Of a stretch of 31,789 nt of DNA, positions 20,452-27,938 are shown piece by piece. Numbering within the stretch: position 1 is the stretch's first letter; every line of letters begins with the position of its first letter. Made by a program: the position numbers and the translations under genes. Under the pieces are notes generated by a model. That model saw only the letters and a program-made list of their open reading frames with translations. It was not told the DNA's origin and did no database searches. The stretch is from Candidatus Methanoperedens sp. (GTDB taxonomy: Archaea; Halobacteriota; Methanosarcinia; Methanosarcinales; Methanoperedenaceae), in the NCBI GenBank assembly GCA_026552835.1, contig JAPMTY010000003.1, positions 1 to 31,789 on the forward strand. Direction: 5' to 3'.

Positions 20452-20482
20452 CTAACGATGTAGTTAAAAACCACAACGTTAG
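20452..20482. terminator. Bidirectional hairpin between convergent genes
   Basis: CTAACGATGTAGTT pairs with AACCACAACGTTAG over 12 of 14 positions with a three-base AAA loop. It sits between the convergent DUF4239-like and pstB genes. The pstB stop (20479-20481) lies within its arm. Confidence 0.5.
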
Positions 20483-21471
20483 CTTTGCTTCTTTATGATG
20501 ATCTCCCAATCCGTTTTATTTTGCTGGTTCACGCTCAATACCTCATGACCGTCGGCTTCCATGCCCCTCGGGACTTCGGTTACTGCCGTGGGGTCGTCCA
20601 CGATTATTTTCAGGATTTTTCCTTTAGGAAGTGCATTCAGCGCCTGTTTGGCATACACAAAATTATAGGGGCACACATTTCCTTTCAGGTTTATCTCCTG
20701 GTCCACTTTCACATCAACAAGGAAAGTCCCGTTAATATAAGCCCGCGTCCTCTCCTCCTTGGGGTTTTCAAACACTTCATTTGCGGGGCCATGTTCCACG
20801 ATTTCACCGAGGTATAGATGGATTACGTAGTCAGCAAGCCTCATTGCCTGGTGGATGTTGTGAGTTACTATCACGATGGTGTAATCCTTCTTGAGTTTCA
20901 GGAGCTGCTCCTCGATATGCTGCGATGAGACCGGGTCTAATGCTGATGTGGGCTCATCGCACAGGATAATTTCGGGCTCGACAGCCAGTCCTCTCGCAAG
21001 ACATAACCTCTGCTGCTGGCCAATAGAGAGTTTTGATGCCGGTGTCTTTAAGCGGTCTTTTACCTCGTCCCACAAACCAGCTATTTTCAGGTATTTCTCC
21101 ACTATTTCATCCAGTTCTTTCTTGTCCGGTTTTCCATGCAGCCTGGGCCCGTATGCAACATTATCGTATATCGACATTGGAAGCGGGTTTGGCCTCTGCG
21201 GCAAGAGGCCCATTTTGCGCCTTACATCCGTGACATCAATACTGCCGTTTAGCATATCCATGCCATCCACTATTATTTTCCCGGAAGCTCTTGCCCCGTC
21301 TGTGAGGTCAATGAGCCTGTTGAAGCATTTGAGCAAAGAACTCTTACCGCATCCTGAAGGACCTATGATGGCTGTTATTTGCTTTTCCGGTATATCGACT
21401 GTTATGCCTTTGAGAGCCTGATGGTCGCTGTAGAACGCATTGACATTCTGGATACTGATATGGCTTTTCAT
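20479..21471 (-). CDS. pstB: Phosphate ABC transporter ATPase PstB fused to a TusA domain
   Basis: The phosphate-uptake ATPase (residues 1 to about 250) has Walker A GPSGCGKSS, signature LSIGQQQRLCLARGL and Walker B EIILCDEPTSALDP, and matches PstB throughout. From about residue 257 to 330 it continues without a break into a TusA/SirA-like sulfur-carrier domain: INLKGNVCPYNFVYAKQAL, then KGKILKIIVDDPTAVTEVP. C267 is in the diagnostic Cys-Pro. TusA proteins carry persulfide sulfur on that cysteine. PstB normally ends near residue 255, so this is a true fusion. The frame is open further upstream, but ATG 21471 has GAGGTG seven bases before it and lies in a hairpin. No phoU follows. The role of the added domain is unknown. 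Confidence 0.93.
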   Translation of the reverse strand: MKSHISIQNVNAFYSDHQALKGITVDIPEKQITAIIGPSGCGKSSLLKCFNRLIDLTDGARASGKIIVDGMDMLNGSIDVTDVRRKMGLLPQRPNPLPMSIYDNVAYGPRLHGKPDKKELDEIVEKYLKIAGLWDEVKDRLKTPASKLSIGQQQRLCLARGLAVEPEIILCDEPTSALDPVSSQHIEEQLLKLKKDYTIVIVTHNIHQAMRLADYVIHLYLGEIVEHGPANEVFENPKEERTRAYINGTFLVDVKVDQEINLKGNVCPYNFVYAKQALNALPKGKILKIIVDDPTAVTEVPRGMEADGHEVLSVNQQNKTDWEIIIKKQS

Positions 21472-21536
21472 AAAGCGACACCTCGCTTTATGCGGTCTGG
21501 GGGTATGCGAAGCATACCCCTTCGTTTGATAAAACG
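21469..21536 (-). promoter_or_regulatory. Three tandem hairpins between pstA and pstB
   Basis: Reading leftward from pstA there are three. First, CGTTT/AAACG with loop TATC on the mRNA (21523-21536). Second, a perfect 9-bp GGGGTATGC/GCATACCCC with a three-base loop (21500-21520). Third, a perfect 10-bp CATAAAGCGA/TCGCTTTATG with loop GGTG (21469-21492). The third puts the pstB ribosome binding site in the loop and its ATG at the foot of the stem, so it could gate translation. Confidence 0.6.
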
Positions 21537-21552
21537 TAAGTTTTCCATGCAA

Positions 21553-23370: not shown

Positions 23371-24393
23371 TCATTCAAGCTTTTTCAACTCTCCATCAAG
23401 CGTTTCCTTCGACAACTGTATGTAGCCTACCTCATCAACATACTTCTGTCCGTCAGTCAGAACCCATCTGATGAATTCTGAGGTAACTCCTGTGGGCTTG
23501 CCTTTGGTCACGAATAATTCAACTCTCGCAGGCGGACTCGGGAACACTCCGCTTTTAATGGCTGCAATTGTTTTATCCTTGGTGCTTATATTCTCATCAG
23601 GGTCAACGATGCCGTTTCCATTCACGTCAAAGGGTATTATCTGGATACCATCAACAGGCAACCCGCTGCTCATATTAAAGGCAAAGTTATAGTTGTTATA
23701 GCCTATGCCCAGGGGGTCTCTCTGTACCGCAGCAAGCAGGCCGGGGTCACCGTAAACGCCAGTGCCTTTGAGACTTTCCTGTTTACCGCCGAGATACTTT
23801 GCCCATATATCAGAGGCACCCGACGAATCGCTTCTTGTATATACATGAATTTCTGCCTTATTATCAGTCCCGACTACATTTCCCCATGTATTCACAGTCC
23901 CGTTGAGAAAAACGGCCGTAAAAGTCGATTTTTTGACACCTTTGCTCAAGAGATCGTTAAGCACAGGGTTCTTTGCATTGACCGTGGCTACAACGGCATC
24001 CTTGGTCACACCGATCGGGTATGCGCCCTTCTGGATCTCCGAGGGGTCAACGTCTCTTGAAATCATGCCGATATCAACAAGCCCGCCAAGTGTGTCAGCC
24101 ATACCCTTGCCTGCGCCGCCTGCCGAAACCTCTACCTTAACGTTGGGGTGCAGCTTCGTGAACTCATCGCCCCATCGCACAGCCATGGGATACAGGGCAA
24201 ATGCGCCCGATAGCGTTATCGTGCCCGAAAGTTCCTTTGAGCTTACAGCGGTCTGTGTAACCGTGGCTCCGGATGATGCCGGTGTTGCAGTAGCGGTAGG
24301 CTGGGTTTCGGACTTTGGATTACCGATGCATCCTGATAATAAGGCACCTGTGATTACTGTAATTAGAATAATTGTGATAATTTTTCCTTTCAT
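23371..24393 (-). CDS. pstS: Phosphate-binding lipoprotein PstS
   Basis: Solute-binding lipoprotein of the phosphate importer, 340 residues. The signal peptide ends in LLSGC, giving a lipid-anchored N-terminal Cys, followed by a Thr/Ala/Pro linker (about 28-55). The binding core starts TITLSGAFALYPMAVRWGDE and has VEVSAGGAGKGMADTLGG and the RSDSSGASDIWAKYLGG block that contacts phosphate. GAGGTGG lies five bases before ATG 24393; a GTG inside that site is not used. The ATG overlaps the stop of a small upstream ORF (TAATG). First structural gene of pstSCAB. Confidence 0.95.
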   Translation of the reverse strand: MKGKIITIILITVITGALLSGCIGNPKSETQPTATATPASSGATVTQTAVSSKELSGTITLSGAFALYPMAVRWGDEFTKLHPNVKVEVSAGGAGKGMADTLGGLVDIGMISRDVDPSEIQKGAYPIGVTKDAVVATVNAKNPVLNDLLSKGVKKSTFTAVFLNGTVNTWGNVVGTDNKAEIHVYTRSDSSGASDIWAKYLGGKQESLKGTGVYGDPGLLAAVQRDPLGIGYNNYNFAFNMSSGLPVDGIQIIPFDVNGNGIVDPDENISTKDKTIAAIKSGVFPSPPARVELFVTKGKPTGVTSEFIRWVLTDGQKYVDEVGYIQLSKETLDGELKKLE

Positions 24394-24537
24394 TAATTCC
24401 ACCTCGAATTTCTTAAAATGCTCTTCTGTTTCTGCAGGAAATCCCGGACATTCAGGAATTCTGCACTATGTTTTATAGATCGATTCATTAAATTGTCGTC
24501 ATCGGTGACGGCAAAGATGATTCCTTCTTGTATTCAT
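24393..24537 (-). CDS. Small ORF before pstS, apparent +1 frameshift near start
   Basis: ATG 24537 opens MNTRRNHLCRHR and stops at 24499-24501. The +1 frame, entered at ACA AGA AGG, reads EGIIFAVTDDDNLMNRSIKH and continues for 44 residues to a TAA whose last base is the first base of the pstS ATG. The +1 frame has no start codon until an internal ATG at 24488, because TGA stands immediately before it. A TATA-like element (24586-24595) and a weak AGGCG precede the ATG. The peptide EGIIFA matches three other genes in this window. It could be a translationally coupled regulator of pstS, a leader, or a degraded gene. Confidence 0.45.
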
Positions 24538-24546
24538 TATTAATTC

Positions 24547-24583
24547 GCCTGCTTATGAAATAAGCAAGTGCAAATGAGCAGGC
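24547..24583. promoter_or_regulatory. Overlapping inverted repeats in the pst promoter region
   Basis: GCCTGCT (24547-24553) is complementary to AGCAGGC (24577-24583), and GCTTAT (24551-24556) to ATAAGC (24560-24565). The two pairings share three bases and exclude each other. They lie between the TATA-like element and the first ATG of the pst transcript, a position suited to an operator. Confidence 0.4.
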
Positions 24584-24661
24584 ACTTATAAATATGCACA
24601 GAATCAGGCGATAATTGGAACGATGATTACAAAAACCGAATAATTGCGGCAAAAAATGCGA

Positions 24662-24814
24662 CTAATTCAAACCTGCATAATCCAGCACTGCTTTCTGGTC
24701 ATTCAGGAATTTAACAATCTTATCAAATCCGACATCACTTTTGAGTTTCTTACTTTCAACCTTCATCCGGCAGGAGTTATTTATTCGGGACGGGTTACAT
24801 ATTTCTTCAATCAT
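24662..24814 (-). CDS. Small protein, probably leaderless
   Basis: A 50-residue product starting MIEEICNPSRINNSCRMKVE and ending FLNDQKAVLDYAGLN. No family is recognised. Support for a gene is the long TATA run TTATATATATTT (24836-24847), whose spacing puts the transcript start on or beside ATG 24814, which has no Shine-Dalgarno sequence. The frame stays open further upstream, but that part overlaps the promoter. The C-terminus is helical and charged. The string KFLND resembles EFLNV in the neighbouring small ORF. Confidence 0.4.
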   Translation of the reverse strand: MIEEICNPSRINNSCRMKVESKKLKSDVGFDKIVKFLNDQKAVLDYAGLN

Positions 24815-24835
24815 ATCAATCGCAATTGAAAGGCA

Positions 24836-24847
24836 AATATATATAAT
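24836..24847 (-). promoter_or_regulatory. Strong TATA box
   Basis: TTATATATATTT on the minus strand, with its centre about 26 bases before ATG 24814, the standard archaeal TATA-to-start distance for a leaderless message. Confidence 0.5.
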
Positions 24848-24953
24848 CACAGAAAGAGGCAGATGTTGACACAATTATTCCGATGATAGAAGAAAAAAAT
24901 TAAACAGAATTATTTCAATTTTCTTGAGCTTCCGATATTGAGAGTCACAAAAT

Positions 24954-25035
24954 CTCCCTTACTTCCTAACTTTGCCCTGAAGGAAGGGAGCTGAATCTAT
25001 ATTTTGGTTCTGTGGGTGTAAGCACCGTACTGGTG
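24954..25035 (+). mobile_element. Possible remnant of an IS200/IS605-type end
   Basis: A bulged hairpin CTCCCTT..TTCCT / AGGAAGGGAG (24954-24990) followed by CTGAATC, then CACC-GTACT-GGTG (25023-25035). Purine-pyrimidine hairpins of this kind close the right ends and guide RNAs of TnpB-bearing IS605 elements. No transposase or tnpB is present, and the left end was not found, so this is a resemblance only. Confidence 0.25.
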
Positions 25036-25057
25036 TGGTTGAGAAGACAACTTTGAC

Positions 25058-25648
25058 ATGCCTACAGCAGAATCGAAACATTTAAGTATTATTAATAGTA
25101 TTAGTAAAAGTATGCAACCATCGACAAATTCAGAGATAGTAATAACAAATCAAAGTAATCCTTTATCCGTTCCTAAAGAATTACCGAATAATAAACTAAA
25201 AGATTTAATTGACAAATGGGCGCGGCCGGGTATTAGTAATAATTTGAAAATATGGATACATAAACCAAATAATATATTTATTCATCCTTCAATTGGAATT
25301 GGTCTAGGGACAAAATCTAAGCCCAACGTCTTTACATTTGTTGTACTAGATAATAATTCTGTCCAATGGTTAGAAAATGTTCTTAAAGAATCATTAGAAA
25401 TATATAACAACAATAAAAATTTAATAAATAATGCCGAAAACCGATTGACTTTGTGGGAAAAAAAGAAAGAATTAGACCGACTGCGAAAAATAAGTATATC
25501 AGTATCCGTAGTCAAAAAAGGAGACAATACATCAATTGTTTTAATGATTAATTCAAAGGCTTTCTTGTATACAGATTTGTGTTATGATGATATAGATTGG
25601 ATACTCACAACATTGCATATAGCAAAAAACAGTTTGGAGAGCCGTTAA
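25058..25648 (+). CDS. AT-rich ORF of unknown function
   Basis: A 196-residue soluble protein that I do not recognise. The first 40 residues are Ser/Asn/Gln-rich and look disordered (TNSEIVITNQSNPLSVPKEL). The rest alternates beta strands (NLKIWIHKPNNIFIHPSIG, VFTFVVLDNNSVQWL) with a charged helix (RLTLWEKKKELDRLRK). Codon usage is far richer in A and T than in the neighbouring operons, a usual sign of transfer. The ribosome binding site is poor (GAGAAG 11 bases before the ATG). A 57-residue membrane peptide gene starts three bases after its stop, so they form a two-gene unit. Confidence 0.65.
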   Translation: MPTAESKHLSIINSISKSMQPSTNSEIVITNQSNPLSVPKELPNNKLKDLIDKWARPGISNNLKIWIHKPNNIFIHPSIGIGLGTKSKPNVFTFVVLDNNSVQWLENVLKESLEIYNNNKNLINNAENRLTLWEKKKELDRLRKISISVSVVKKGDNTSIVLMINSKAFLYTDLCYDDIDWILTTLHIAKNSLESR

Positions 25649-25651
25649 AAT

Positions 25652-25825
25652 ATGCTTGAATATAATCAATATACGATTTCAGCCGTTACTGTAAGCTTAT
25701 TTGCTATATATGTAATAAAAAGATTATTCTTCAAGGATATGGACATCAGATTGAATAATCTAGACATGAATATTAGATTGAACAATATAGATATTAGGAT
25801 TAAAAAATTAAAGAGAAAATTTTAA
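25652..25825 (+). CDS. Small membrane peptide with repeated coiled-coil units
   Basis: A 57-residue protein. One hydrophobic helix (about residues 8-27: TISAVTVSLFAIYVIKRLFF) is followed by nine-residue repeats DMDIRLNNL, DMNIRLNNI and a shortened DIRIKKL, then a basic end. The repeats are also visible in the DNA as 27-base units. GGAGAG ten bases upstream and the three-base gap to the preceding ORF indicate co-expression. A single-span anchor with a polar coiled coil suggests oligomerisation at the membrane. It might act as partner or effector for the upstream protein; this is inference. Confidence 0.65.
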   Translation: MLEYNQYTISAVTVSLFAIYVIKRLFFKDMDIRLNNLDMNIRLNNIDIRIKKLKRKF

Positions 25826-25935
25826 TAGTATTTTTTTAATTCCCTTATACAGATGCACCAAGATATGTAAAATTCATTTAACGATTTGCAATAGAGATCT
25901 CTCACAAAAATATAATGGCATTCTAAGCGGCATGT

Positions 25936-26235
25936 TTACATCCCTACTAAAACAAGCTCGAACTTGATGCCCATACAGGATGAGCAGAACCCAAGGAATT
26001 CTTTTGCATTGACAGACATTTCATCGTACAGGGATTTTGATATGTAAAAAATAATATGGACTTTTCCGGGATTCCCTGCAATTCTCTTTCTTATCTCACC
26101 GTGAAGCTCCTCAAAAAGGGCTATGAGGGTCTTGAAATTTATCCTCTTCAGTACCCTGATGCGCCCAACTCCAGCCTCATCTACCCAGACTCTGTAATTG
26201 GCAGATTTCCTGACAAAAATATCACTCTCATTCAT
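25936..26235 (-). CDS. Unknown small soluble protein
   Basis: A 99-residue alpha/beta protein: SANYRVWVDEAGVGRIRVLK, KVHIIFYISKSLYDEMSV, then an FLGFCSSCMGIKFELVLVGM end. The layout (strand, strand, helix, strand, helix, strand) would suit a STAS-like or small regulatory fold, but no signature is definite. Its ATG overlaps the stop of the upstream gene (ATGA), so the two are translated together and probably act together. Confidence 0.6.
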   Translation of the reverse strand: MNESDIFVRKSANYRVWVDEAGVGRIRVLKRINFKTLIALFEELHGEIRKRIAGNPGKVHIIFYISKSLYDEMSVNAKEFLGFCSSCMGIKFELVLVGM

Positions 26236-26628
26236 ATTATTCTTTTCTTACTGGATTCTATATCCCATCTGACTTCTTCAGCCAGAGACCATCTTGCCGC
26301 TGCAACAATATCGAGCTGCTCATGGATATATCCGCGCAGGAATACATCTTCGATATTCTCTGCATCCCTCTCAACTTCATGCTGCCGGATGAGTACATTT
26401 TCAAGTTCCCGGAGCGCATGATGCCTGCCCGCTCGCTGCCAGCTTGTTTCAATTAACGCAAGCGTGCGGGCCAATCTTTCAAGGCTTATTCGCATGCGGC
26501 GGTATTGCGGTTTCCCCAACCTGTCCTTTGCGTAGTTCTCATATGCTGAAACCTTTTCCTCAGTACCCTCATCTATCGATGATTCTATGCCATCGATAGC
26601 AAAAACGATTCCTTCTTTTATCTGACAT
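26232..26628 (-). CDS. Unknown helical protein, apparent +1 frameshift near start
   Basis: The body of the gene is open from 26638 to 26232 but contains no ATG or GTG, and only a TTG at 26519, 40 codons in. Upstream, ATG 26628 with GGTGA eight bases before it and a TATA box GATATATATCC (about 26661-26671) opens MSDKRRNRFC and stops at 26569-26571. A +1 step at AAA AGA AGG gives MSDKEGIVFAIDGIESSIDE followed by 111 further residues. These are strongly helical with many Arg and Glu (RISLERLARTLALIETSWQR; HEQLDIVAAARWSLAEEVRW). I do not recognise the family. The stop overlaps the next gene (ATGA). Confidence 0.6.
26573..26599 (-). repeat. Perfect inverted repeat near the frameshift site
   Basis: CTATCGATG (26573-26581) and CATCGATAG (26591-26599) form a 9-bp stem with a nine-base loop. 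On the mRNA it begins 11 bases after the AGAAGG of the overlapping gene, roughly where a structure could influence decoding. Confidence 0.4.
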
Positions 26629-26832
26629 TGGTTTTTTCACCGCGTCTGTCAATGCGAACTGGATATATATCACCGGACATACAGGCATATTTTGTCACAA
26701 TCCAATGCAATACCTGAACCGTTCCGGGTAATTATTGACTTCCTTGTTCCTGAAAACCGCATAGAGCTGCCAAATATGGCCTGTTTACGTGATTTAAATA
26801 TGTATGAAAACTATGGAATTTCCGGTGTTAAA

Positions 26833-26965
26833 ATGACAAACCAGGAAAAAAGAAGGGGTTTACTTTGCCCCGGATGGTATAGTTAGCAGGGATGCAACGC
26901 TGGAGGAGCAGCATGAGCAGGATGATGCCTTGCACATATGGTGCAGGATCCTGTCAGGTGACTGA
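26833..26965 (+). CDS. Small protein, apparent +1 frameshift near start
   Basis: ATG 26833 has GGTG five bases upstream and a TTTAAATA box at 26793-26800. Its frame reads MTNQEKRRGLLCPGWYS and stops. A +1 step at AAA AGA AGG gives MTNQEKEGVYFAPDGIVSRD, then ATLEEQHEQDDALHIWCRIL and SGD, stopping at 26963-26965, 44 residues in all. The +1 frame has no ATG, GTG or TTG between the upstream TGA and residue 30. A zinc-ribbon gene follows one base after the stop with its own GGTGA site inside this gene. No family is recognised. Confidence 0.5.
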
Positions 26966-26966
26966 T

Positions 26967-27113
26967 ATGACCTCTACCACGCAATACAGGTGCCCCAACT
27001 GCAAGCATGCAATACCGGTAACAAGCGCAGATTTCATCAAAGGAATTGCTTTTGTGTCATGCGCGGGCTGCGGCATGGATGCTTTTGCCATAGAAGAGGC
27101 GCTGTTAAAATGA
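26967..27113 (+). CDS. Small zinc-ribbon protein
   Basis: A 48-residue protein with two CxxC pairs: YRCPNCKHAIPVTSADFIKG and then FVSCAGCGMDAFAIEEALLK. It is likely a single zinc ribbon of unknown role, perhaps a nucleic-acid or protein adaptor. GGTGA lies five bases before ATG 26967 (within the end of the preceding ORF), so translation is coupled. The stop overlaps a further ATG (ATGA at 27110). Confidence 0.75.
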   Translation: MTSTTQYRCPNCKHAIPVTSADFIKGIAFVSCAGCGMDAFAIEEALLK

Positions 27114-27119
27114 CAAAAG

Positions 27120-27164
27120 AAAGAGGGGCGCTTTTTTCCTATCCATTTGCGCCCATTTTTCCAA
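27120..27164 (+). terminator. Hairpin-rich stretch after the zinc-ribbon gene
   Basis: GGGCGC (27125-27130) is complementary to GCGCCC (27148-27153), followed by ATTTTT. Inside it, GAAAGAGG can also pair with CTTTTTTC. This may be a weak or conditional terminator before the acidic small gene. Confidence 0.4.
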
Positions 27165-27176
27165 TTTGAGGTTAAT

Positions 27177-27275
27177 ATGGATTATGAAAAAGACGAAATA
27201 AACGATGATGTAAACGAGAATGTTGATGATGAAGACCTGCGGCGCTTCCTGCGCGGAGGATTCGGGGCAAAATGA
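27177..27275 (+). CDS. Very small acidic protein
   Basis: A 32-residue product: MDYEKDEINDDVNENVDDED followed by LRRFLRGGFGAK. GAGGT four bases before the ATG is a strong ribosome binding site. An acidic N-terminal two thirds and a basic, Gly-ending tail (RRFLRGGFG) are distinctive. No homologue is recognised. It lies third in a run with the frameshift-type gene and the zinc-ribbon gene and is directly followed by a good terminator, so it closes this small operon. Confidence 0.55.
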   Translation: MDYEKDEINDDVNENVDDEDLRRFLRGGFGAK

Positions 27276-27276
27276 G

Positions 27277-27301
27277 GGAAAAAGGCAACTTTTTCCTTTT
27301 T
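27277..27301 (+). terminator. Intrinsic terminator
   Basis: A perfect 8-bp stem GGAAAAAG / CTTTTTCC closed by a GCAA tetraloop and followed by TTTTT. It starts two bases after the acidic gene's stop. Confidence 0.8.
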
Positions 27302-27395
27302 AATTCCAGAACTAGAAGATTTCTGGATAAAATAGCCGATTTATGAAGTTTGATAATTATATGGGTCTATTAGAATATGCCAATCACGGCAAATA

Positions 27396-27424
27396 GTGAA
27401 ATGTGCCGGGGAGTCACATTTCAC
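27396..27424. promoter_or_regulatory. Perfect 10-bp inverted repeat in intergenic region
   Basis: GTGAAATGTG (27396-27405) and CACATTTCAC (27415-27424) flank nine bases. It lies in the 250-base gap between the terminator above and the next promoter, about 65 bases upstream of that TATA box. No gene is supported in this gap. The repeat could be an operator. Confidence 0.4.
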
Positions 27425-27530
27425 CTCCTATTTTATTCATCTCATAAAAAATCATATCAATTGTGCCAATAATTGCTCCAATAAATAGGTTTATAAAGGT
27501 TAAATTCAAGTTTAAGCTGGAGAATTTTAA

Positions 27531-27822
27531 ATGAATTCAAGAAGGAATCGTCTTTGCAAACAATGGACAGCTATTTGAGTTAGTGAACGCGAAGATAGAT
27601 CATTTACCTCCCTCGGCAAAGCTTGTTTTTAAAGTGCTGGAATCCAGCGGATTTTTGACACAAAAGGATATTGCGAGGGAAACCTATCTTCCGGCAAGAA
27701 CAGTCAGATACGCCCTGAACAGATTAAAAGAAGAAAATATATTGCAGGAGCGCTTCTATTTCCAGGATGCGCGCCAGAGCCTCTACGGGCTAAATAATGC
27801 CCCGGGGGTGCCGACTGGATAA
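27531..27822 (+). CDS. Winged-helix protein, apparent +1 frameshift near start
   Basis: The helix-turn-helix body (DHLPPSAKLVFKVLESSGFL, ARETYLPARTVRYALNRLKE, QERFYFQDARQSLYGL) is an archaeal MarR/TrmB-like winged helix with a DNA-reading helix. A GTG at 27583 could start a 79-residue form. Upstream, ATG 27531 has GGAG eight bases before it and a TTTATAAA box at 27490-27497. It opens MNSRRNRLCKQWTAI and stops at 27576-27578. A +1 step at TCA AGA AGG gives MNSEGIVFANNGQLFELVNA, joining the winged helix without a stop. If translated this way the protein has 96 residues and an N-terminal tail shared with three other genes. Confidence 0.7.
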
Positions 27823-27866: not shown

Positions 27867-27938
27867 GCCAGGATGGCGGAACGGCTACGCAATCGCCTGC
27901 AGAGCGATTCCATTCTGGTTCGAGTCCGGATTCTGGCT
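27867..27938 (+). tRNA. tRNA-Cys (anticodon GCA)
   Basis: A full cloverleaf fits. The acceptor stem is GCCAGGA / TTCTGGC, the anticodon stem ATCGC / GCGAT with loop CTGCAGA (anticodon GCA), and the T arm TCTGG-TTCGAGT-CCGGA. The discriminator base is T, as expected for cysteine tRNA. CCA is not encoded. A TTTATATT box lies just upstream (27854-27861) and a T-run (27948-27953) downstream. Confidence 0.92.

Follow-up and report, generated by a model that had tools for sequence, protein, structure and literature searches.

Four small genes in a stretch of 31,789 nucleotides from Candidatus Methanoperedens sp. (contig JAPMTY010000003.1, positions 1 to 31,789; this whole stretch is referred to as the window) raise the question of how their products are translated, since each begins with an ATG whose frame (frame 0) soon ends, while the protein is encoded in the +1 frame. 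The four start sites, at 24537 (-), 26628 (-), 26833 (+) and 27531 (+) for genes A to D, are arranged as described in the original prediction, which had been made from the letters of the window alone. The answer proposed here is a programmed +1 frameshift a few codons after initiation, resembling that of the release factor 2 (RF2) gene prfB and quite probably sensing cysteinyl-tRNA (Cys-tRNA). Some methane-cycling archaea appear to form a small regulator (gene D) and neighbouring small proteins only via a +1 slip at a conserved Cys codon.

Gene D illustrates the layout. Its ATG is preceded at a distance of eight bases by a Shine-Dalgarno (SD) motif (GGAG, 27519-27522), and the short frame 0 (27531..27578, +; MNSRRNRLCKQWTAI followed by a stop, 15 codons) contains the frameshift signal AGG-AAT-CGT-CTT-TGC (27543..27557, +), in which CTT is proposed to slip to TTT with TGC in the ribosomal A site. 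The +1 frame (27553..27822, +, including the stop; 89 codons from TTT) encodes a winged-helix protein with a match to the helix-turn-helix (HTH) family HTH_24 of Pfam (PF13412; E 2.4e-06, 27.4 bits versus a cut-off of 21.9), and a tRNA-Cys gene (anticodon gca; 27867..27938, +; ARAGORN) is located 44 bases 3' of it. The core common to genes A-D in frame 0 is AGG-NNT-NNN-YTT-TGC. The pattern AGAAGGNNTNNNYTTTGY occurs exactly four times in the window and not once in 100 dinucleotide shuffles; allowing as many as 2 mismatches in a looser pattern gives no significant result there (8 matches versus 4.43 expected, at least 8 in 9 of 100 shuffles).

The layout of gene D is widely kept. Its closest relative, from a metagenome-assembled genome of Candidatus Methanoperedens, shares 97% identity over 95 residues, and a scan of genome contigs yielded 38 loci, mostly of Methanoperedens and Methanothrix; a short ATG frame with YTT-TGY stands upstream of the protein in the 36 loci with sufficient upstream DNA (of 37 inspected). 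Enlarging the set with loci from genomes of the class and the phylum gave 97 distinct D-type sequences, of which 94 carry the signal (YTT-TGY upstream in frame 0), the ATG being visible in 93 and the remaining one (L026) being truncated. The three sequences devoid of the signal are L139, a longer paralogue, L282, which lies at a contig end, and L301, which has a plain ATG. At the level of genomes, a D match at E <= 2.0e-23 was obtained in 49 of the 392 genomes of the phylum, and 46 of these 49 (overlap counted by hand) also contain the exact pattern ATGAGNRATCNNYTTTGY, which is found in only 5 of the other 343 genomes (reversed-pattern control, 1). The three D-containing genomes without the exact pattern comprise a contig end (G388), a GGG variant (G088, locus L114) and a plain ATG (G066, locus L118). 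Of 20 more distant homologues, 19 have no signal and are open from an in-frame ATG onwards without a change of frame, the other one (L287) bearing a signal variant; among 23 further loci of the class, mostly paralogues, the signal is present in 6, absent in 16 and could not be placed in 1. This conservation strongly supports programmed +1 frameshifting soon after initiation as a property of the gene set, as had been predicted, and gene D very probably needs the shift. Database entries of gene D show odd start positions and often lack the N-terminus, as would be expected of a gene that is read only by changing frame.

Where the slip occurs is indicated by the codons of the 93 D sequences, counted in frame 0 relative to the slip codon. 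Position -4 is mostly ATG (81; AGA 11, CGG 1), position -3, the place of an SD-like element, mostly AGG (87; AGT 4, GGG 2), position -2 GAT (64), AAT (28) or GGT (1), and position -1 CGT (70), CGC (10), CGA (9), CTA (3) or TTA (1). The slip codon itself is CTT (48) or TTT (45), and the following codon in the A site is TGC (47) or TGT (46) and never a stop. The Phe codon entered in the +1 frame is TTT in all 93 sequences, while the HTH domain of the same genes uses TTT in 103 and TTC in 185 of 288 cases. The slip is therefore highly likely to take place at YUU-U, where the P-site tRNA can re-pair one base further on. Upstream, the SD-like AGG starts nine bases 5' of YTT-T. Predicted pairing with the 3' end of 16S rRNA (GGATCACCTCCT, read in two genomes) amounts to -7.1 for the AUGAGGGAUC form and to -4.0 to -6.2 for the AGAAGG forms, compared to -10.4 for the corresponding piece of prfB.

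At the signal, constraint seems to act on the nucleotides. In the D homologues, variation at R in RAT and at Y in YTT is silent in the +1 frame, whereas exchanges among CGT, CGC and CGA or between TGC and TGT are silent in frame 0 and alter the +1 residue; hence, neither protein alone explains the pattern. The earlier claim that differences lie at third positions in the +1 frame accordingly holds for the sites of the window but does not describe the homologues. Just 3' of the slip site, differences at +1 codon positions 1, 2 and 3 (pairs not independent; 9 of 160 distinct sequences left out, since they fit no family) display an excess at the third position in gene D (409, 318, 553; 160 pairs) as well as in families B (174, 98, 243; 57 pairs) and F (23, 14, 45; 8 pairs), the counts for C being 19, 39 and 40 (11 pairs).

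The identity of the A-site codon and the genes surrounding D point towards cysteine. Cys is kept in 93 of 93 D sequences, as either TGC or TGT, although an exchange of the one for the other replaces Ala by Val in the +1 protein. In 55 loci with gene D, ARAGORN predicted 33 tRNAs, 28 of which, in 19 loci, are tRNA-Cys (L025 and L191 represent one contig, so that one tRNA-Cys is counted twice), and a marker of cysteine or sulfur metabolism is present in 30 of the 55. Neither markers nor tRNAs were found in 40 control loci with chance matches to the pattern; these are shorter in total (75 kb versus 552 kb), and the share of tRNA types is thus the better control. The clearest case is L195, with the order cysE, cysK, tRNA-Cys, cysS, D, tRNA-Cys, a radical SAM gene, tRNA-Cys and SepCysS; neighbours of D elsewhere include SepCysS and a TusA-like gene (L188) or cysS (L191). 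The SepCysS proteins of L195 (9808-11172) and L325 (8255-9637) have about 60 additional N-terminal residues before the family match. Since the regulator often adjoins cysteine and tRNA-Cys genes, the slip may gauge cysteine supply, and it is probable that the supply of Cys-tRNA sets the rate of frameshifting, which would make the slip an amino-acid-responsive (hungry-codon) one.

Frame layout, conservation, the placed start and the linkage of D to cysteine genes can be read directly from the DNA; from these we infer slippage and its place, a rate set by Cys-tRNA and what the D protein binds, as follows. A ribosome would start at the SD-placed ATG and read a few codons up to YUU, the A site then presenting UGY for Cys and the SD-like AGGRAUC (its AGG nine bases 5' of YUU) contacting the 3' end of 16S rRNA. 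With plentiful Cys-tRNA, Cys would be read and frame 0 would soon stop; with scarce Cys-tRNA, the P-site tRNA would slip from YUU to UUU and the protein would be made in the +1 frame. Synthesis of the winged-helix regulator D would in this way report Cys-tRNA supply, and the regulator probably acts on tRNA-Cys and sulfur genes. Control of tRNA-Cys and cysteine genes by D, in either direction, is reasonably likely, and so is the composite picture of an archaeal +1 cassette that serves as Cys-tRNA sensor, i.e., a sense codon in an RF2-like site governing a regulator for tRNA-Cys and sulfur genes.

A possible DNA target is provided by palindromes of the type TTMACAATNGTKAA, which are present 5' of many D genes. 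In 18 D loci, 50 such sites (at most 1 mismatch) were counted versus 2, 1 and 2 in three mononucleotide shuffles. In whole genomes, where distinct exact sites were counted (reversed control, 1), all 5 sites of G301 lie within 14 kb around D. A region of 150 kb around D includes 6 of the 7 sites of G199, and the 17 sites of G119 comprise 11 in the 44 kb ending at D, 3 clustered about 115 kb off and 3 elsewhere. With up to 2 mismatches, a palindrome ends 5-12 bases 5' of 10 of the 28 tRNA-Cys genes and of none of the 5 other tRNA genes; no such palindrome stands 5' of the tRNA-Cys genes of the window, L001-L036, L190 and L191. Palindromes also precede cysK-cysE, nifS-nifU, sufS-like and thiM genes as well as some genes without a clear sulfur role. 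The TTMACAATNGTKAA palindrome is a probable cysteine/sulfur operator in some genomes (loci L185-L202 and L324-L335; e.g., L194 at 3444, L195 at 9685 and L326 at 2898), and the gene D protein is a natural candidate for binding it. A second candidate is a small protein of the METPCQKIVWD... type, HTH-like by eye and without NCBIfam match, that is encoded beside nifS/sufS genes next to the palindrome (L324 3158-3526, L326 3269-3637, L329 3055-3402 and L330 1827-2147). A promoter and terminator scan was of the sigma-70 type and not informative for an archaeon.

The other three cassettes of the window share the signal and differ in what follows it. Gene A (short frame 0, 24499..24537, -; MNTRRNHLCRHR followed by a stop, 12 codons) contains the signal AGG-AAT-CAT-CTT-TGC (24511..24525, -) and continues in the +1 frame for 40 codons from TTT plus stop (24393..24515, -); this stop overlaps the ATG (TAATG) of a gene for a PstS-like binding protein (23371..24402, -; Pfam PBP_like_2, NCBIfam PstS families below cut-off). 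Most copies of gene A (that of the window and those of L041-L043, L141 and L154) have an inverted repeat of the GCTTATTTCATAAGC type immediately 5' of the SD (about 24545-24575, -, in the window), which may represent an operator or form a hairpin close to the SD. The pst-like operon behind gene A includes a PstB-type ATPase with a C-terminal domain of the sulfur carrier TusA (20479..21552, -; Pfam TusA, E 3.7e-18). The same fusion is encoded in L140 (1230-2225, -) and hints at import of a sulfur compound by the transporter following A.

Gene B (short frame 0, 26569..26628, -; MSDKRRNRFCYRWHRIIDR followed by a stop, 19 codons; signal AGG-AAT-CGT-TTT-TGC, 26599..26613, -) encodes in the +1 frame 123 codons from TTT plus stop (26232..26603, -), belonging to a family found in other Methanoperedens-type genomes and without Pfam match. 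Directly 3' of it, a 99-residue protein is encoded (25936..26235, -), likewise without Pfam match, relatives of which (95-99 residues) occur near gene D in other lineages (12 of the 55 D loci, e.g., L185 7386-7673). Gene C (short frame 0, 26833..26886, +; MTNQEKRRGLLCPGWYS followed by a stop, 17 codons; signal AGG-GGT-TTA-CTT-TGC, 26854..26868, +) has a +1 frame of 33 codons from TTT plus stop (26864..26965, +), represented as family C in other genomes, and is directly followed by a small zinc-ribbon-like gene (26967..27113, +; Pfam matches all below cut-off), into which the C cassette continues in the +1 frame in L140 and L220. A fifth, weaker site had been suspected at 27110, but the gene behind it (27177..27275, +) most likely is an ordinary one that is not frameshifted here: the joined frame has its own ATG at 27177 with GAGG upstream, and among the relatives of its product the YTT-T core is missing from 13, TTT-TCC stands in 4 and the full signal is seen only in the one in L199.

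Beyond the window, 32 of 34 Methanoperedens-family genomes contain the AGAAGG form of the pattern (chance matches included, reversed control lower). Among 129 distinct sites in the DNA examined, 82 pass a filter demanding an ATG and an early stop in frame 0 together with 25 or more open codons in the +1 frame; most of them belong to families A, B, C, D and F (the last comprising proteins of about 65 residues ending in FRGR), and three (L216, L237 and L261) possibly are chance matches. Of the 47 failing sites, 8 resemble the same families with another or damaged start, and most of the remainder look like chance matches. In these 8, the ATG is replaced by GTG (L156, L180), TTG (L233), ATT (L170, L215, L260) or ACG (L011, L178), and the occurrence of GTG, TTG and ATT at this place suggests that it behaves like a real initiation site. 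The cassette is also joined to different proteins: in L156 (minus strand), the GTG-started A cassette runs in the +1 frame into the PstS-like protein, with the protein length as elsewhere; in L233, the protein of 99 residues that is encoded after B in the window is headed by a cassette; and in the TPR-protein gene of Methanothrix (L191, 5459, -), SD-ATG-AGG-GAT-CTA-CTT-TGT-TGA precedes a protein in the +1 frame. In L141, of the Methanoperedens type, genes C, B and A are lined up with metY, metX and metW. As part of the proposed sensing of Cys-tRNA, a spread of the cassette to several small genes of Methanoperedens, including a leader before the TusA-linked transporter, seems somewhat probable.

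Several explanations other than a Cys-tRNA-dependent slip have to be weighed. The same +1 frameshift might proceed at a fixed rate, with Cys merely being a slow codon and the cysteine linkage reflecting what D regulates. Cys does account for only 65 of the 8323 codons of the window, and +1 shifts are generally favoured by slow codons in the A site according to a review (PMC5009743), but Cys is invariant in D through both TGC and TGT at the expense of the +1 residue, TGC or TGT is likewise the A-site codon in families A (20 distinct cores), B (19), C (14) and F (9), a biased set, as most of these loci were fetched with a TTTGY pattern, and D stands among tRNA-Cys and cysteine genes; a fixed rate is therefore considered unlikely. 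Still less probable is a conserved leader peptide, with the main protein arising separately from reinitiation at an unusual start codon further downstream. Conservation of the frame-0 peptide is good (many copies have MRDR[FL]C), and candidate cysteine attenuator peptides exist in mycobacteria (PMC4633059). Yet the segment from slip site to HTH domain is devoid of ATG, GTG and TTG in 74 of 93 D copies (19 contain one), no common alternative start codon was seen, and TTT never varies, although TTC would do equally well for a peptide or a start signal.

The original prediction had placed the slip at tandem AGA-AGG codons directly after initiation and had tied it to the decoding of AGA and AGG. 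The junction xxA-AGA-AGG exists at all four sites of the window, but it is the Methanoperedens form only: most homologues have ATG in place of AGA (81 versus 11 of 93 D sequences), so that AGA-AGG cannot be the general slip site, and the invariant parts, YTT-T and the Cys codon, lie 3' of it and would be left unexplained. Rarity of the tandem Arg codons is ruled out by codon usage in the window, where AGG and AGA account for 34% and 20% of Arg codons and CGT (4%) is the rarest sense codon, and Cys-tRNA is the likelier sensed quantity; this reading is accordingly regarded as very improbable. A recurrent sequencing or assembly error, for which the one context common to the four window sites might speak, had been deemed unlikely from the outset and is practically eliminated, since the same layout is found in many independent genomes, some of them on single contigs of 2 to 4.6 Mb (L185-L188), and is shared by 94 of 97 homologues, while 19 of the 20 more distant ones read straight through.

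The proposed Cys-tRNA-dependent slip has to accommodate a number of observations that weigh against it. No Cys/sulfur marker was found in the DNA examined of 25 of the 55 D loci, and the link to sulfur is weak for the A, B, C and F families, whose loci contain a marker in 5 of 21 cases and no tRNA; the TusA-fused ATPase behind gene A still clears the cut-off of the NCBIfam phosphate family PstB (345.8 versus 343.2 bits). An SD-like stimulator is present, yet it is weaker than in prfB (-4.0 to -7.1 versus -10.4). Gene A exhibits no +1 third-position excess just 3' of the slip site (148, 144, 129; 47 pairs); given the overlap of its stop with the PstS-like start, the shift could deliver ribosomes there, and its +1 peptide may not be important in itself. 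The D homologue of L118 (G066) lacks the signal and has a strong SD with a plain in-frame ATG; it has either lost the frameshift naturally or is a relative in which the frameshift never existed. As to the palindromes, the 6 sites of G027 are scattered, one of them standing 5' of D; the window contains none, and a scan of it for DNA patterns returned nothing above chance. Moreover, as judged by eye, the palindromes occupy the interval from TATA box to gene start, as would suit a repressor. If D were that repressor, its synthesis under scarcity of Cys-tRNA would not constitute a simple homeostatic loop, which is the main loose end of the proposal.

If the proposal is correct, a +1 case conserved across several methane-cycling archaeal lineages would stand beside a single reported archaeal -1 case, and sensing of cysteine and tRNA-Cys by these archaea would become directly testable in Methanosarcina. 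No account of the element was found in the literature searched, outside of which most subscription papers fall, and this is not proof of absence. Archaea are not known to possess RF2; an RF2-like layout in these organisms suggests that the same ribosomal trick arose twice.

Among known systems, the closest in layout is prfB, with AGGGGG, three bases and CTTT-GA, a few prfB genes having TTTT instead (PMC12421855, in the part considered). As in prfB, the signal of gene D is situated near the gene start, an SD-like AGG stands at a fixed distance of nine bases before a slippery YTTT (CTT-T in 48 and TTT-T in 45 of 93), and a P-site slip is needed for the full protein. The present system differs in being archaeal, in having Cys (TGC or TGT) in the A site rather than the stop TGA (rarely TAA) described for prfB, in an SD-like part weaker than AGGGGG and in its products, which are a winged-helix protein or other small proteins and not RF2. 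With the yeast element Ty1 (CUU_AGG_C), it shares a P-site CUU slipping to UUU before a slow A-site sense codon, the type of codon stressed for +1 shifts in the 2016 review of frameshifting, which in the part of its text examined does not mention cysteine (PMC5009743); Ty1 belongs to a mobile element, whereas here an archaeal Cys codon, an upstream SD-like element and starts of regulator genes are involved. Recoding by archaeal ribosomes itself has precedent: a 2021 review, as far as consulted, lists one reported programmed frameshift, a -1 case in contrast to the +1 shift proposed here, and treats a haloarchaeal virus +1 shift and Mg chelatase as suggestions only (PMC8211752), and a ribosome profiling (Ribo-seq) study of M. 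mazei mentions genes with shifted frames, the word "frameshift" being absent from its main text (PMC11456600). The cysteine-rich leader peptides of mycobacteria resemble the cassette in that a short translated frame with Cys codons is proposed to report cysteine supply (PMC4633059, same part); here, a single Cys codon within a slippery site and a change of frame would take the place of separate downstream translation. If so, the cassette would correspond in archaea to T-boxes and attenuators, acting by choice of frame.

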